Assembly: GCF_002849715.1 (NCBI RefSeq)
Contig: NZ_CP018863.1
Coordinates: 4,216,001-4,280,000 of the forward strand
Source of the DNA: Arthrobacter crystallopoietes
GTDB lineage: Bacteria > Actinomycetota > Actinomycetes > Actinomycetales > Micrococcaceae
Direction: 5' to 3'
DNA: 64,000 nucleotides
Below, piece by piece: positions 16,223-37,680 of the stretch. The notes beneath the pieces were generated by a model that saw nothing but the letters and a program-made list of their open reading frames with translations, had not been told where the DNA came from and did not search any database. Within the stretch, counting starts at the first letter, position 1. Each line of letters starts with the position of its first letter. The position numbers were made by a program, and so were the translations under genes.

Positions 16223-16299
16223 GGCTGCTCCGTTGCTGCTCAGGGCGGAACACGCACGGCAGAATTCCACGCTGGCCAGCCAGCGGCCCGAAGACTGCA

Positions 16300-16384
16300 G
16301 CGACATCCCTCCGCCAGTCCTAACTGGTTCAGGTTCAACGGGTCTAAAATCTCAGCCAGCCAGTCGCTGGCACCCCGTGTCACT
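16300..16384 (-). promoter_or_regulatory. TPP riboswitch (THI element)
   Basis: On the minus strand the leader carries the conserved THI-box strings: ACACGGGGTGCC, GGCTGAGA, ACCCGTTGAACCTGA and GGCGGAGGGA in the right order and spacing. It ends about 78 bases before the thiD-tenA start. In GC-rich actinobacteria such elements often act on translation initiation. No clear terminator follows here. Confidence 0.96.
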
Positions 16385-16403
16385 GCTGCCAGCCTAATGC
16401 ATC

Positions 16404-31161: not shown

Positions 31162-31782
31162 TTAGTTGAACTCGGGACTGGTCGTGCGGGAGCGCTTGAT
31201 CTCGTAGAAGTACGGGAATTCCGCCAGCGCGACTGCGCCATCGAAGATCCGCCCGGCCGTATCTCCGCGGGGAATCCGGGTCAGTACCGGTCCGAAGAAG
31301 GCGGTTCCGTTGAAAGCGACTACCGGGGTTCCGACTTCGTCGCCTACCAGGCTGATGCCTTCCTCATGGCTGGCACGCAACTCCTCGTCATACTCGTCGG
31401 AAGTGGCGAATCCTGCCAGATCCGCCGGCAGGCCCACTTCCGCCAGCGATGCCGCTATGACAGATTCGATGTCCTTGTTGCCTTCATTGTGGATACGCGT
31501 TCCCATGGCGTCGTACAGCCGCTTAACGTAGTCGGCACCGTGCAGTTCCCGGGCGGCAATGATGACGCGGACCGGACCCCAGGCAGTTTTCAGGAATTCC
31601 TTGTAGTTCTCGGGCAACTCATCCCTGCCATCGTTCAGTACTGCCAGGCTCATGACGTGCCAGTCCACTTTAACCTCACGGACCTTTTCCACCTCAAGCA
31701 TCCAGCGTGAGGTGATCCATGCGAACGGGCATGCCGGGTCGAACCAGAAATCAACGGTCGATGGTGAGTTGTTTTCGGACAT
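31162..31782 (-). CDS. DsbA-fold protein of the Rv2466c (mycothiol-dependent nitroreductase) type
   Basis: A 206-residue thioredoxin-fold protein with an inserted helical domain. The start of the fold reads [17 protein letters not shown], which closely follows M. tuberculosis Rv2466c. That enzyme uses a CPWC site and mycothiol to reduce nitro compounds. Here the motif is CPFA (C18 to A21), so the resolving cysteine is absent and a two-cysteine mechanism is not possible at this site. A mycothiol-linked single-cysteine mechanism or another role is inferred. AAGGAG precedes the ATG. The gene follows the second clpX by 55 bases in the same direction. Confidence 0.85.
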
Positions 31783-31837
31783 ACTCAGAACTCCTTATTG
31801 TGGAAACAGTTGTGGTACTAAAATGCCCAACCCGGAA

Positions 31838-33130
31838 TCAGGCGGATTTGTTCCGGCGCAGGGCAGCAACGTCCTGCGGGATCAGGATGGGGTAGCCTTC
31901 GCCCCTGATGACGTCGCCGGTAATGACCACGGAAGCGATATCCTGCCGGCTCGGTATCTCGAACATCACCGGCTGCAGCGCTTCCTCGACAATGGCCCGC
32001 AGTCCGCGGGCACCTGTCCCCCGTTCGAGCGCGAGTTCCGCTACCGTTTCGAGGGCCTCCGGCTCGAACGAAAGTTCCACACCGTCGAGTTGGAACATCT
32101 TCTGGTACTGCTTGATCAGTGCGTTCTTCGGCTCTGTCAGGATCTGCATCAACGCCGGACGGTCCAGTTTCGATACCGTGGTGATCACCGGCAGGCGTCC
32201 GATGAATTCCGGTATCAGCCCGAACTTGAGCAAATCCTCCGGCATGACCTGTCCTTGGCTGTCCCCGTCCGTCGAAACCTCGCGCAGTGCGGCGCCAAAG
32301 CCGACTCCCTTGCCTCCGGACCTGCCGTCAACGATTTCCTCGAGTCCGGCGAAGGCGCCTGCCACGATAAAGAGCACGTTGGTCGTATCGATCTGGATGG
32401 CTTCTTGCTGCGATTGTTTCTTGCCGCCCTGCGGCGGAACGGAGGCTACGGTCCCCTCGAGGATCTTCAGCAGCGCTTGCTGGACACCTTCACCGGAAAC
32501 GTCGCGGGTGATGGAAGGGTTCTCGCTCTTGCGCGAGATCTTGTCGATCTCGTCAATGTAGATGATCCCCTGCTCGGCCTTCTTGACATCGTAGTCAGCG
32601 GCCTGCAGAAGCTTGAGCAGAATGTTCTCGACGTCTTCGCCAACGTAGCCGGCCTCGGTCAGGGCCGTCGCATCGGCTATCGCGAACGGAACGTTGAGCC
32701 TGCGTGCCAAGGTCTGCGCGAGAAAAGTCTTGCCGCAGCCCGTGGGACCCACCAGCAGGATATTGGATTTGCCAACCTCGACGTCGGCCAGTGGGCCGAT
32801 GTCGGCGGAATCAGGAGAAGCTTCGGATACCGGAGCCGGCTGGGTACGTTTGTAGTGGTTGTAGACCGCAACAGCCAGGGCGCGCTTGGCAGGCTCTTGC
32901 CCGATGACGTATTCCTGCAGGAACTCGAAGATCTCCCGCGGTTTGGGTAGTTCGAAGGCGGCAGGCTCGGCTGCTACCGAAAATTCTTCCGCAAGCATCT
33001 CGTTGCACAGCTCGATGCATTCGTCACAGATGTAGACCCCGTGGCCCGCGACCAGCTTTCGGACCTGTTTCTGGCTTTTGGCGCAGAAAGAGCATTTGAG
33101 CAGGTCGCCGTTTCCACCAATGCGGGCCAT
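31838..33130 (-). CDS. Second, divergent ClpX ATPase paralogue
   Basis: A 430-residue AAA+ unfoldase with the complete ClpX layout. It has an N-terminal C4 zinc-binding domain (CSFC...CDECIELC, residues 13-42), Walker A GPTGCGKT, the GYVG pore-1 loop in [11 protein letters not shown], Walker [11 protein letters not shown], sensors and the arginine finger region. It is collinear with its upstream neighbour and about 83% identical by hand alignment. Two functional loops differ. The pore loop RKH (237-239), which contacts degradation tags, is KKQ. The ClpP-docking IGF (276-278) is VGF. The linker (51-60 and 96-112) and C-terminus also diverge. Start ATG with GAGGA. Likely an active unfoldase with changed specificity. 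Confidence 0.93.
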
Positions 33131-33181
33131 ATTCCGTCCTCTACCTGGTCGTCTGTCTGGATTGTGCGGCGCCCGTTCCGG

Positions 33182-34474
33182 TCAGGCGGACTTGTTCCGT
33201 CGCTTGGCAACCACGTCGTGGGAAATGAGGGAGGGCTCCCCCTTGCCGTTCACCACATCGGCGGTAATCACCACGGAAGCGATGTCTTCGCGGCTGGGCA
33301 GGTCGAACATCACCGGCTGCAGAGCTTCCTCGACAATGGCCCGTAGTCCACGGGCACCTGTCCCCCGTTCCAGCGCAAGCTGGGCGACGGCCTCCAGGGC
33401 CTCCGGTTCGAAGGAGAGTTCAACACCGTCCAGTTGGAACATTTTCTGATACTGCTTAATCAGTGCATTCTTGGGTTCGGTGAGGATCTGGATCAGCGCG
33501 GTACGGTCAAGGTTCGACACCGTAGTGATCACCGGCAGCCGGCCGATGAATTCGGGGATCAAGCCGAACTTCAGCAAGTCTTCCGGCATGACTTCGCCGT
33601 AACTGTCAGCGTCCTTGCTGGCGTCGCTCAACGGGGCGCCGAACCCGATGCCCTTGCGTCCGGCGCGTGAACCGATGATTTCCTCCAGCCCGGCGAAGGC
33701 TCCGGCCACAATGAACAGCACATTGGTGGTGTCAATCTGGATGAATTCCTGATGCGGGTGCTTCCGGCCGCCCTGGGGAGGCACGGAGGCTACGGTTCCC
33801 TCAAGGATTTTCAGCAGTGCCTGCTGGACACCTTCACCGGAAACGTCGCGGGTGATGGAGGGGTTCTCGCTCTTGCGTGAGATCTTGTCGATCTCGTCAA
33901 TGTAGATGATGCCCTGCTCGGCCTTCTTGACGTCATAGTCAGCGGCTTGGATGAGCTTGAGCAGAATGTTCTCGACGTCTTCCCCGACGTAGCCGGCTTC
34001 GGTCAAGGCAGTTGCATCTGCGACGGCAAAGGGAACGTTGAGCCGGCGTGCCAGCGTTTGGGCCAGATAGGTCTTGCCGCAACCGGTAGGACCGATCAGC
34101 AGAATGTTGGACTTGCCGACCTCAACGTCATCCAGCGGACTGGTGTCCGCGAGGTTCGCTGAGCTCTTGGGCGCGTGCCCCGACTGGATGCGCTTGTAGT
34201 GGTTGTAAACGGCAACAGCCAGTGCCCGCTTTGCCGGTTCCTGTCCGATAACGTATTCCTGCAGGAAATCGAATATTTCACGCGGCTTGGGCAGCTCGAA
34301 GGAACCGAGGTCCGAGACCTCGGAGAGCTCCTCTTCGATGATCTCGTTGCAGAGCTCAATGCATTCGTCACAGATATAGACGCCGGGGCCAGCGATCAGC
34401 TTCCGGACTTGTTTCTGGCTTTTGCCGCAGAAGGAGCACTTGAGCAGGTCAGCGCTCTCACCAATGCGAGCCAT
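33182..34474 (-). CDS. clpX: ATP-dependent Clp protease ATPase subunit ClpX (canonical copy)
   Basis: ClpX unfolds tagged proteins and feeds them to ClpP1P2. The 430-residue protein has the zinc-binding domain (CSFC at 13-16, CDECIELC at 35-42), Walker [13 protein letters not shown] pore loop, Walker B YIDEIDKI, the RKH pore loop at 237-239 ([10 protein letters not shown]) and the IGF ClpP-binding loop at 276-278. All the sites needed for ssrA-type degradation are therefore in place. AAGGGGA precedes the ATG. It follows clpP2, but a strong hairpin terminator between them suggests a separate promoter. The second clpX begins 51 bases downstream. Confidence 0.96.
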
Positions 34475-34611
34475 ATTCAGTCCCCTTACTTGGTCCTACT
34501 GGAATCGGTCAACGCCCGGGAGCGGCGTGCGGAGCTCCCATGCTCAGACGAATGAAGGCGGCTGACTAGCTTCCACTCTAAATCACTTGGCTGACAGTTT
34601 CAGTAACCACA

Positions 34612-34645
34612 GAGCCCGTGGTGCCATGTTAAGCACCACGGGCTC
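34612..34645 (-). terminator. Terminator between clpP2 and clpX
   Basis: Perfect 13-bp stem GAGCCCGTGGTGC / GCACCACGGGCTC with an 8-base loop, placed just after clpP2 on the minus strand. It indicates that clpP1-clpP2 and the clpX pair are separate transcription units, at least in part. Confidence 0.8.
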
Positions 34646-34680
34646 GGTGGATCAGCAATGAAATTGCCGGTACACAATCA

Positions 34681-35355
34681 TTAGGCCTTGTTGATGGCCG
34701 GCTTGTGGATCTTGCGCGAATCGAGGACCTGATCGATCAGGCCGTAGGACAGTGCGTCCTCGGCCGTCAGGATCTTGTCACGCTCGATGTCAACGTTGAC
34801 CTGGTCCGAGGTCCTGCCGCTGTGCAGCGCCAGTGTGTCTTCGAGCCAGGTGCGCATACGCATGACCTCGGCTGCCTGGATCTCCAGGTCAGAAGCCTGC
34901 CCGCGCTCACCGCCGCCGAGTGCCGGCTGATGGATCAGCACCCGCGCGTTCGGCAACGCCAGGCGCTTGCCCGGGGTACCAGCAGCCAGCAGCACGGCGG
35001 CCGCACTGGCCGCTTGTCCGAGGCACACGGTCTGGATCTCGGGACGGATGTACTGCATGGTGTCGTAGATTGCCGTCATCGCGGTGAAGGAGCCGCCGGG
35101 CGAGTTGATGTACAGCGTGATGTCGCGGTCCGGATCCGTGGATTCCAGGACCAGCAGCTGCGCCATGACGTCGTCTGCCGAGGCATCGTCCACCTGCACA
35201 CCGAGGAAGATGATCCGGTCCTCGAAGAGCTTGGTGTAGGGGTCCTGGCGCTTGAAGCCGTAAGGCGTGCGCTCCTCGAACTGCGGCAGCACGTAGCGGC
35301 TGGTCGGAAGGTTGGCTGCGTGGCCGCCGGCAGCGGCAGCAAAATTGTGGTTCAT
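34681..35355 (-). CDS. clpP2: ATP-dependent Clp protease proteolytic subunit ClpP2
   Basis: Serine peptidase subunit that assembles with ClpP1 into the mixed ClpP1P2 tetradecamer of actinobacteria. The 224-residue product has the catalytic Ser in [14 protein letters not shown], the His in [10 protein letters not shown] and the Asp in the [14 protein letters not shown] region, plus the oxyanion-loop motif YINSPGGS. An N-terminal propeptide-like segment of about 20 residues precedes [19 protein letters not shown] precedes the ATG. It starts 51 bases after clpP1 and is followed by a terminator. Confidence 0.96.
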
Positions 35356-35406: not shown

Positions 35407-36033
35407 TCATGAATCCTGTGAAGTTCCGCCGCCGCCGGTAACGCCGCCGGCGTGGGCCGAGATCTTGTCGAAGAAGCCGTACTCGAGGCCTTCCTCGGCG
35501 GTAAACCACTTGTCGCGGTCATTGTCCTTGAGGATCTGGTCCACGCTCTGCCCGGTCTGCTCCGCGGTCAGCTCCGCCATGACCCGCTTCATGTGCAGAA
35601 TCAGCTCGGCCTGGATCTTGATGTCGGACGCGGTACCGCCGATGCCGCCGGAGGGCTGGTGCATCAGGATGCGCGCGTGCGGAGTGGCGTAGCGCTTGCC
35701 CTTCGTTCCCGAGGACAGCAGGAACTGGCCCATGGAAGCTGCCAGGCCGGTGGCGACCGTGACGACATCGTTCGGAATGAACTGGATGGTGTCATAAATG
35801 GCCATGCCTGCCGTCACCGAGCCGCCGGGCGAGTTGATGTAGAGGTAGATGTCCTTGTCAGGATCCTCGGCCGAAAGCAGCAGCAGCTGGGAACAGATGG
35901 CATTGGCGTTCTCGTCCCGCACTTCCGAGCCAAGCCAGATAATGCGTTCCTTCAGCAGGCGGTTGTAGATGTAGTCTTCCCGGGTGGCCGGGTCGACGGT
36001 GGCCATCTTCGGAGTGGTTGATTCACTGGACAT
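35407..36033 (-). CDS. clpP1: ATP-dependent Clp protease proteolytic subunit ClpP1
   Basis: Partner of ClpP2 in the mixed peptidase. The 208-residue product (start ATG at 36033 with AGAGG upstream) has [12 protein letters not shown], the catalytic Ser in [11 protein letters not shown], His in [12 protein letters not shown] and Asp in [12 protein letters not shown]. The C-terminus ends in a Gly-rich tail. It is the first gene of the clpP1-clpP2 unit, downstream of tig. A ClgR-like site and a promoter with -10 TAGTGT (minus strand, 36110-36115) lie in the 225 bases before it. Confidence 0.96.
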
Positions 36034-36153
36034 TCTGAAATACCTCTCGCTTGTCCCCACAGGCTGCACCGGTGGCCGGTGCAGTCCCCAGGTTCTTTTT
36101 CCTTCTTGGACACTAACGCGGATCGGTGCCCGTTTCTGCCTTATTTACGGGCT

Positions 36154-36258: not shown

Positions 36259-37680
36259 TTAGGCCTTGGACTCGGCAGCGCTGTCGTCCGCGCTCTCCTC
36301 GGACGCAGCCTCTGCCGGGGCTTCCTCAGCCTGTGCGGCTTCTGCCTGCGCAGCTGCGATCATGTCCTCAACGTTCGGCTCTTCCTCACCGGCGGGGCGG
36401 ACGAAGTCGCTGAGGTCGACCTCGGCACCGTTGGTGTCGGTAACCTTGGCCAGCTCCAGCACCTTCGCCAGGGCCTTGCGGCGGCGAACCTCGGAAACCA
36501 TCATCGGCACCTGGCCGCTCTGGTCGATGAGCTGTGCGAACTGGTTCGGATCCATGCCGTACTGGCTGGCGGAGGAAACGATGTAGTCGATCAGCTCTGC
36601 CTGGCTGACGCCGACCTCTTCCTTGTCCGCCACGGCGTCGAGGATGATTTCGTTCTGGAAGGCACGCTCGGTGTTCTGGCGAACTTCAGCGCGGTGCTCT
36701 TCGGTGTCGTGCTCTTCGCTGCCGTCGCTGTTCTCCGGGCGGAAGTGCTGCTCGAGCTGCTCTTCAATTACGGATTCGGGAACGGGAACCTCAACGAGTT
36801 CCATCAGCTTGTCCAGCACCTTGTCGCGTGCTTCGACGCCCTGCTCCATGACCTTGCTGTCGGCAGCCTGCTTTGCCAGGTCTTCCTTCAGCTCGGCAAT
36901 GGTGTCGAATTCGCTGGCCAGCTGGGCAAAGTCATCGTTTGCCTCCGGCAGCTCGCGCTCCTTGACGGCCTTGATGACAACCTTGACCTCGGCTTCTTCA
37001 CCGGCGTGCTCGCCACCGGCCAGCGTGGTCATGAAGGTGGCGTCTTCGTCGGCGCTCAGGCCGGTTACGGCTTCGTCCATGCCCTCGAGCATGGTTCCGG
37101 CGCCGACCTGGTAGGACAGATCCGCTGCGGAATCAACCTCTTCGCCGTTCACCTTGGCGGTGAGGTCGATGGTGATGAAATCATCCTGGGCGGCGGGACG
37201 GTCGACAGACTTCAGCGTGCCGAACCGGCCGCGCAGGTCGTCCAAGGCCTTTTCGACGTCGGCGTCGCTGGCTTCGGCAGCTTCCACGGTGACCTCGAGG
37301 CCGGAATACTCCGGCAGCTCGATTTCGGGGCGGATGTCCACCTCGACATGGAAGGACAGCTGGCCTTCGGTGGCAGCCGGGTCCGGGACCTCGGTGATCT
37401 CAACCTCGGGGCGGCTCAGGGGGCGGATACCGCTCTCCTGCACAGCGTTCTGGTAGAAACCGTTCAGGCCCTCGTTGATGGCCGTCTCGATGACATAGCC
37501 GCGTCCAACCCGCTGATCGATGAGCTTGGAGGGAACCTTGCCCTTGCGGAAGCCAGGCACCTGGATCTGGGAGCCGATTGTCTTGTAGGCCTCGTCAATG
37601 CTGGGCTTGAGTTCCTCAAAGGGAACCTCAACATTGAGCTTGACCCGGGTGGGGGTGAGGTTTTCGACAGCGCTCTTCAC
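36259..37680 (-). CDS. tig: Trigger factor, ribosome-associated chaperone and prolyl isomerase
   Basis: Binds nascent chains at the exit tunnel. The 473-residue protein has the N-terminal ribosome-binding signature [14 protein letters not shown], a FKBP-type isomerase domain (about 155-240) and the helical C-terminal arms. An extended acidic, Ala/Glu-rich tail (from about 435) is typical of actinobacteria. The start is GTG with AGGAG upstream. It lies upstream of clpP1, as in most bacteria, linking folding of new chains and their degradation. Confidence 0.97.

Follow-up and report, generated by a model that had tools for sequence, protein, structure and literature searches.

A tandem pair of clpX genes in Arthrobacter crystallopoietes, with a maintained second copy altered in its RKH loop

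A 64,000-nucleotide stretch of Arthrobacter crystallopoietes DNA (contig NZ_CP018863.1 of assembly GCF_002849715.1, forward-strand positions 4,216,001 to 4,280,000; hereafter the window) carries two genes for the unfoldase ClpX, one directly behind the other, and raises the question of what the second one does. The gene clpX has been tandemly duplicated in the A. crystallopoietes group, and the upstream gene, copy A, which adjoins clpP2, has stayed ancestral-like (its identity to the lone clpX found in five relatives is 93-96%). The downstream gene, copy B, has been maintained with its ATPase motifs, zinc site, pore loops and ClpP-docking loop present, and its RKH motif has become KKQ.

Both open reading frames (ORFs) are complete, with ATG starts and 430 codons each, and they are arranged head to tail. 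The proteins align without gaps and are identical at 358 of 430 residues (83.3%, 72 differences), the genes at 1028 of 1293 nucleotides (79.5%), with a GC content of 0.59 in copy A and 0.60 in copy B. On the clpX family model TIGR00382 (cut-off 370.75 bits) copy A scores 641.9 bits and copy B 610.6, and the other two matches in the genome are weak (about 20 bits) and under the cut-off. The Cys4 zinc site (CSFC at residue 13, CDEC at residue 35), Walker A (GPTGCGKT), Walker B (IIYIDEID), the pore loop (GYVGED) and the pore-2 Thr and Val occupy identical residue numbers in the two proteins. A preliminary description of the locus had reported two complete 430-residue ClpX proteins encoded 51 bases apart, collinear and about 83% identical (about 73 differences), both with the zinc domain, Walker A and B and the GYVG loop, and neither a pseudogene. 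All of this is borne out by the ORFs, the family scores and the purifying selection on both copies described below, but the description missed that both ssrA-contacting residues of the RKH loop are altered in copy B.

Copy A has the motif expected of a canonical ssrA-recognising ClpX (RKHPHQE). Copy B does not: all seven B sequences have KKQ in an ungapped loop, and copy B is, judged by its sequence, a ClpX by family model but not a canonical ssrA-recognising one. The comparison set comprised 264 non-B ClpX sequences (246 distinct), with the second copy of a further genus genome (G008_B, from genome G008) and two plasmid copies set aside; it is rich in Micrococcaceae, and three of its 116 genome loci had no usable sequence. 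The R, K and H of the motif are each invariant in all 264, and the motif is intact in 266 of the 267 non-B ClpX examined, the sole exception being G008_B, which has RKN. Of the 211 sites conserved in at least 97% of the set, eight are broken in every one of the seven B sequences: G17A, I27V, P30H, I45M and I46L belong to the zinc domain and its helix, and R237K, H239Q and F244A lie in the RKH loop or next to it. Differences between A and B are sparse in the motor (one of the 67 residues from 167 to 233) and dense in the recognition and variable parts. In the ClpP-docking loop A has IGF, B has VGF and G008_B has LGF; the Gly and Phe are invariant in the 264 others, and the Ile position is Val in 27 of them and Leu in 21.

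In Escherichia coli ClpX, according to the available excerpts of PMC7652416, the Arg and His of RKH contact the ssrA tag together with a Tyr and Val of pore-1 (Y153, V154) and a Thr and Val of pore-2 (T199, V202), and the substitution R228A, as cited there, lowers specificity for ssrA and raises it for N-degrons. Copy B keeps the equivalents of the four pore residues and changes both RKH contacts. A canonical ssrA-type substrate exists in the host, since the transfer-messenger RNA (tmRNA) of the source genome encodes the tag AESKQHDFALAA. The tmRNA locus is found twice in contig C1 of this genome (12323-12691 and 4754989-4755357, within identical surroundings of 3369 bases), and its duplication near both contig ends suggests a circular chromosome with an untrimmed overlap of about 19 kb; the window lies outside that overlap.

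The ratio of nonsynonymous to synonymous substitution (omega) was estimated with a branch codon model that was purpose-written rather than a standard program, for 17 sequences on a topology fixed to two duplications. Omega was 0.018 for copy A, 0.033 for the background of other ClpX, 0.187 for the B stem, 0.065 for the B crown and 0.128 for G008_B. Neutrality (omega = 1) was rejected for the B crown (twice the log-likelihood difference, 2dlnL, 292.6), the B stem (36.9) and G008_B (84.4), and the B crown differed from the background (2dlnL 9.4) and from the B stem (2dlnL 14.7). Five models refitted without codons 161-240 gave the same outcome (codon windows in this model, in the trees and in the approximately unbiased (AU) tests are approximate, their numbering being one low beyond residue 104, and windows of synonymous divergence count alignment columns). 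In pairwise comparisons the ratio was 0.06-0.12 among B sequences and 0.008-0.023 among A sequences, but 0.137 for the near-identical G003/G007 pair. Thus, copy B went through one fast burst of replacements and was then maintained at about twice the background omega, as the high stem value, the low crown value and the rejection of omega = 1 indicate. Divergence is asymmetric, copy A being the slowest and copy B the fastest in the codon model. Whether both copies are under purifying selection, a question posed by the preliminary description, is answered with a qualification: both are and neither evolves neutrally, but constraint on B is weaker than on A. An asymmetry that includes two ssrA-contacting residues favours a changed substrate choice over simple work sharing.

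The pair is rare in the samples searched. In a set of ten genus genomes, which includes the source genome (G000), two clpX genes above the cut-off were found in G000, G002, G003, G007 and G008, and one in G001, G004, G005, G006 and G009. Orthologues of B stand at the same place in three of the nine other genomes (G002 being a single-contig assembly), and G008 has a tandem second clpX that is diverging separately. The gene order tig-clpP1-clpP2-clpX(-clpX)-DsbA-like, with valS divergent, is kept in all ten. A family sample of 395 genomes taken from a larger group (388 matched at E<=1e-100, seven without a match) held more than one clpX match in seven, namely the five genus genomes and G317 and G322, whose second copies sit on plasmids of 375-401 kb. 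A confirmed full-length pair occurred in one of 396 phylum genomes (386 matched, ten without a match), the source genome itself. Two further phylum genomes, G446 and G490, were not counted as duplications, their pairs being partial pieces in fragmented assemblies; the two pieces in G490 cover overlapping parts of the model, and a second copy is therefore possible there. These rates hold for the samples searched, given the genomes without a match, and within them a single clpX is, as the preliminary description had it, the usual state. Among the 120 protein clusters listed of 616 over the threshold, P0001-P0003 are B-type (96-100%); P0002 and P0003 come from short jgi/ena contigs, probably of metagenomes. 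Among the 80 contig loci listed, none is more than 78% identical to B. A contig titled Vibrio cholerae strain 35D (L054) encodes a ClpX that is 78% identical to B and groups with Arthrobacter echini; this record is probably contaminated or mislabelled.

Two duplications with parallel change make the better-supported history of these copies from the sequences. In the nucleotide tree the split that sets A and B apart from the rest has support 99, and G008_A pairs with G008_B (99). An origin of B outside the group of copy A and the single copies of G001, G005 and G009 was rejected (AU 0.003 for the whole gene, 0.025 without codons 161-250). The other history, a single older duplication common to G008 and the four-species clade, followed by part conversion and by one loss in the G001/G005/G009 lineage, is a lesser though appreciable possibility. 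It would account for five replacements that B and G008_B share in full (E6G, I46L, L50F, H241Q and S418P) and a sixth, K424L, present in five of the seven B sequences; the ten copies of the genus that are either A or single have the other residue at these six sites, and most residues shared by B and G008_B occur in some ClpX outside the genus. A tree of codons 1-60 does join B and G008_B (support 89), which the free tree of codons 1-75 does not, and the species tree from neighbouring genes needs one loss only. Conversion itself is likely, because at about codons 161-224 A and B differ unusually little at synonymous sites; elsewhere their synonymous divergence is about that of A versus the relatives' single copies. 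Weighing against a single duplication, the constraint that joins B with G008_B failed the AU test for the whole gene (0.0003), for the gene less codons 161-250 (0.00075) and for codons 76-430 (0.00003); it was not rejected on amino acids (0.10) or on codons 1-60, 1-75, 1-160, 61-160 and 225-300. The A-B spacers of the G000 clade and of G008, compared to date the duplication, were uninformative beyond the leader.

Parallel change is also seen in other extra copies of ClpX. At 233 sites conserved in at least 95%, B breaks 10, G008_B breaks 13 and six are common to both, for which a naive hypergeometric probability of 1.6e-6 serves as a guide only since it treats conserved sites as equally changeable. 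A search for plasmid-borne ClpX matched 65 records, some evidently chromosome-sized, and 12 were chosen for motif reading: eight have RKH, three have RKN (Rossellomorea, Erythrobacter and Sphingosinicella) and one has no recognisable motif. A Microbacterium plasmid ClpX with RKH looks frameshifted. Three plasmid clpX genes that directly follow a plasmid clpP keep RKH (H27, H36 and H44, from Sphingomonas, Methylococcus and Ruminococcus albus). The three RKN copies (H35, H46 and H48) have no annotated clpP within 150 bases, and the same is true of five RKH copies. Change of the RKH motif in extra copies is therefore recurrent yet far from universal on the sequences read, being found in G008_B, the three plasmid copies and Myxococcus xanthus. 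Arthrobacter caoxuetaonis and Arthrobacter sp. zg-Y1110 have large plasmids, each with a clpX of its own that keeps RKH (G317:C2 and G322:C2), and on the plasmid of the former (NZ_CP099467.1, stretch L200, 6001-7266) secY, secG and a pair of umuD and Y-family polymerase genes lie near clpX.

The two copies are probably co-transcribed, as far as can be inferred from the layout of the locus. The 5' region of B consists of the spacer only, in which a consensus scan found no promoter-like or terminator-like site, and a scan of 31700-34800 for the sigma-70 consensus found no promoter for either copy. One terminator-like site was found, at the 3' end of B (31825-31843), which is fewer than the average of 2.8 in shuffled sequence. 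Upstream of A, a hairpin in the clpP2-clpX interval folds at -37.6 kcal/mol with 19 flanking bases, and by eye its GC-rich stem is kept in relatives and its loop varies. The conserved block that comes after it in the direction of transcription, with 24 of 36 columns invariant in the ten genus genomes, is a candidate promoter. The ribosome-binding region was probably part of the duplicated unit, since, by eye, the 20 nt directly 5' of B are similar to the leader of A. The coordinates of these features and of the neighbouring genes are collected in the table.

Table. Features of the clpX locus (positions in the window)
Feature	Position	Strand	Basis
clpX copy A (430 aa; canonical RKH and IGF loops)	33182..34474	-	ORF, TIGR00382 score, identity to the single clpX of relatives
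clpX copy B (430 aa; diverged tandem paralogue, KKQ instead of RKH)	31838..33130	-	ORF, TIGR00382 score
A-B spacer, 51 nt	33131..33181	-	last 20 nt (33131-33150) like the leader of A (by eye)
Leader directly 5' of the copy A ATG, purine-rich AAGGGGA	34475..34495	-	AAGGGGA in 10/10 genus genomes
RKH codons, copy A (residues 237-239 = E. coli 228-230)	33758..33766	-	alignment
KKQ codons, copy B, equivalent position	32414..32422	-	alignment
Likely conversion tract in copy A, about codons 161-224, approximate limits	33803..33994	-	unusually low synonymous divergence from B
Likely conversion tract in copy B, partner stretch, approximate limits	32459..32650	-	unusually low synonymous divergence from A
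Strong hairpin, clpP2-clpX A interval; possible terminator or attenuator, no T run	34612..34645	-	folding
Block GGTTACTGAAACTGTCAG..AGTGATTTAGAGTGG 5' of clpX A; candidate promoter common to A and B	34573..34608	-	column conservation
clpP2	34681..35355	-	named by position and similarity to clpP1
clpP1	35407..36069	-	named by position; start codon provisional
Presumably tig (trigger factor); start codon uncertain	36259..37680	-	name as in the preliminary description
Presumably DsbA-like oxidoreductase gene, 55 nt 3' of copy B, next in the run	31162..31782	-	provisional name

Elsewhere in the window, a thiamine pyrophosphate riboswitch (Rfam RF00059, 66.2 bits) lies at 16289-16387 on the minus strand.

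Copy B is best read, with moderate confidence, as an active ClpX subunit with a shifted substrate choice that is made together with A and possibly enters mixed rings on ClpP1P2. A single mRNA would carry both A and B, with 51 nt between the two translated frames. Copy B would be a working subunit in which recognition of C-terminal Ala-Ala (ssrA-type) tags is weakened or shifted. It could form B6 rings, but mixed A/B rings on ClpP1P2 are more likely in view of the conserved motor and the presumed co-synthesis; in either form it would draw some ClpXP activity away from tmRNA-tagged proteins towards other substrates, and copy A would retain the tmRNA clean-up duty.

Several points weigh against this reading. 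The replacements of R by K and of H by Q are mild, and tag binding may survive them. At the docking-loop Ile (I268 of E. coli) copy B has Val and G008_B has Leu, and in the excerpts of the studies of E. coli RKH mutants and human ClpX (PMC7652416, PMC7112951) I268L causes a severe ClpP-binding defect, though other ClpX carry Val or Leu there too. Many of the differences between A and B lie in linkers, docking-loop flanks and the C-tail, which vary among single copies too, and the higher omega of B could partly reflect relaxed constraint. The eight plasmid copies with RKH mean that an extra copy need not lose the motif. No promoter matching the consensus turned up for A or B, so that co-transcription rests on spacing, and the case as a whole is drawn from sequence.

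The higher omega of B, together with its changes in the zinc domain, the RKH loop and the docking loop (Ile to Val), would also fit a weakened or regulatory subunit that dampens A in mixed rings and has no substrates of its own. This is unlikely, as the crown omega of 0.065 and the intact ATPase motifs suggest an active motor. Slightly more doubtful still is that the second copy merely adds ClpX and that its sequence changes are drift: the catalytic motifs are kept in both copies and B lies in the same block at a spacing of 51 nt, but a dosage copy should evolve like A, whereas the stem omega of B is 0.187 against 0.018 for A, and B has broken two RKH residues invariant in the 264 other ClpX. 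An assembly duplication, which the preliminary description had named as a possible refutation, or a dead copy can be dismissed, since nothing at the locus supports it (the identical duplicated tmRNA locus lies elsewhere on the contig, near both ends), whereas about 20% base divergence, the recurrence of the pair in three other assemblies, the frames open in all four genomic B copies and G008_B, and omega values far below 1 exclude it in practice.

The active, shifted subunit favoured here has its closest known counterpart in ClpX2 of Myxococcus xanthus. According to the available excerpts of PMC11423568, M. xanthus has ClpX1, ClpX2 and ClpX3 and cannot do without the clpP-linked copy; ClpX2 carries Lys in place of the Arg of RKH, ClpX3 has no RKH, and multiple ClpX are called rare in bacteria. 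Several ClpX with an altered RKH loop in one bacterium are thus already known, and the change from R to K is common to ClpX2 and copy B. ClpX2 is isolated in its genome, however, whereas the copies described here are in tandem, 83% identical and part of an actinobacterial clpP1P2 block, with the His changed too. RKH-loop mutants of E. coli ClpX and human ClpX likewise show, in the excerpts of PMC7652416 and PMC7112951, that changing this loop shifts specificity off ssrA-tagged substrates; the former are engineered and the latter is one natural enzyme, whereas here a natural paralogue stands beside an unchanged copy. The plasmid ClpX of Micrococcaceae (e.g., H5, from the A. caoxuetaonis plasmid) also provide a second full-length ClpX in the family, but on a separate replicon, at 69-71% identity to copy A and with RKH kept. 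No tandem clpX pair within a clpP block and with one partner unchanged was recognised among the papers listed in the literature searches, of which the M. xanthus paper alone concerns several bacterial ClpX.

Substrate choice by ClpX has so far been dissected with engineered RKH mutants, and here a natural variant is kept beside a normal copy in a ClpP1P2 block. The comparison of A with B, of B with G008_B and of both with single-copy relatives could show how a protease changes its clients, and the tandem pair offers a way to find out whether hexamers of natural ClpX can contain both kinds of subunit. A bolder and distinctly tentative proposal is that tandem duplication has more than once, in two separate lineages of the genus, given rise to a ClpX subunit that is partly blind to ssrA and is produced alongside a normal one, that mixed rings would set the share of ClpXP spent on tmRNA-tagged proteins, and that loss of the RKH His may be a recurrent mark of accessory ClpX.
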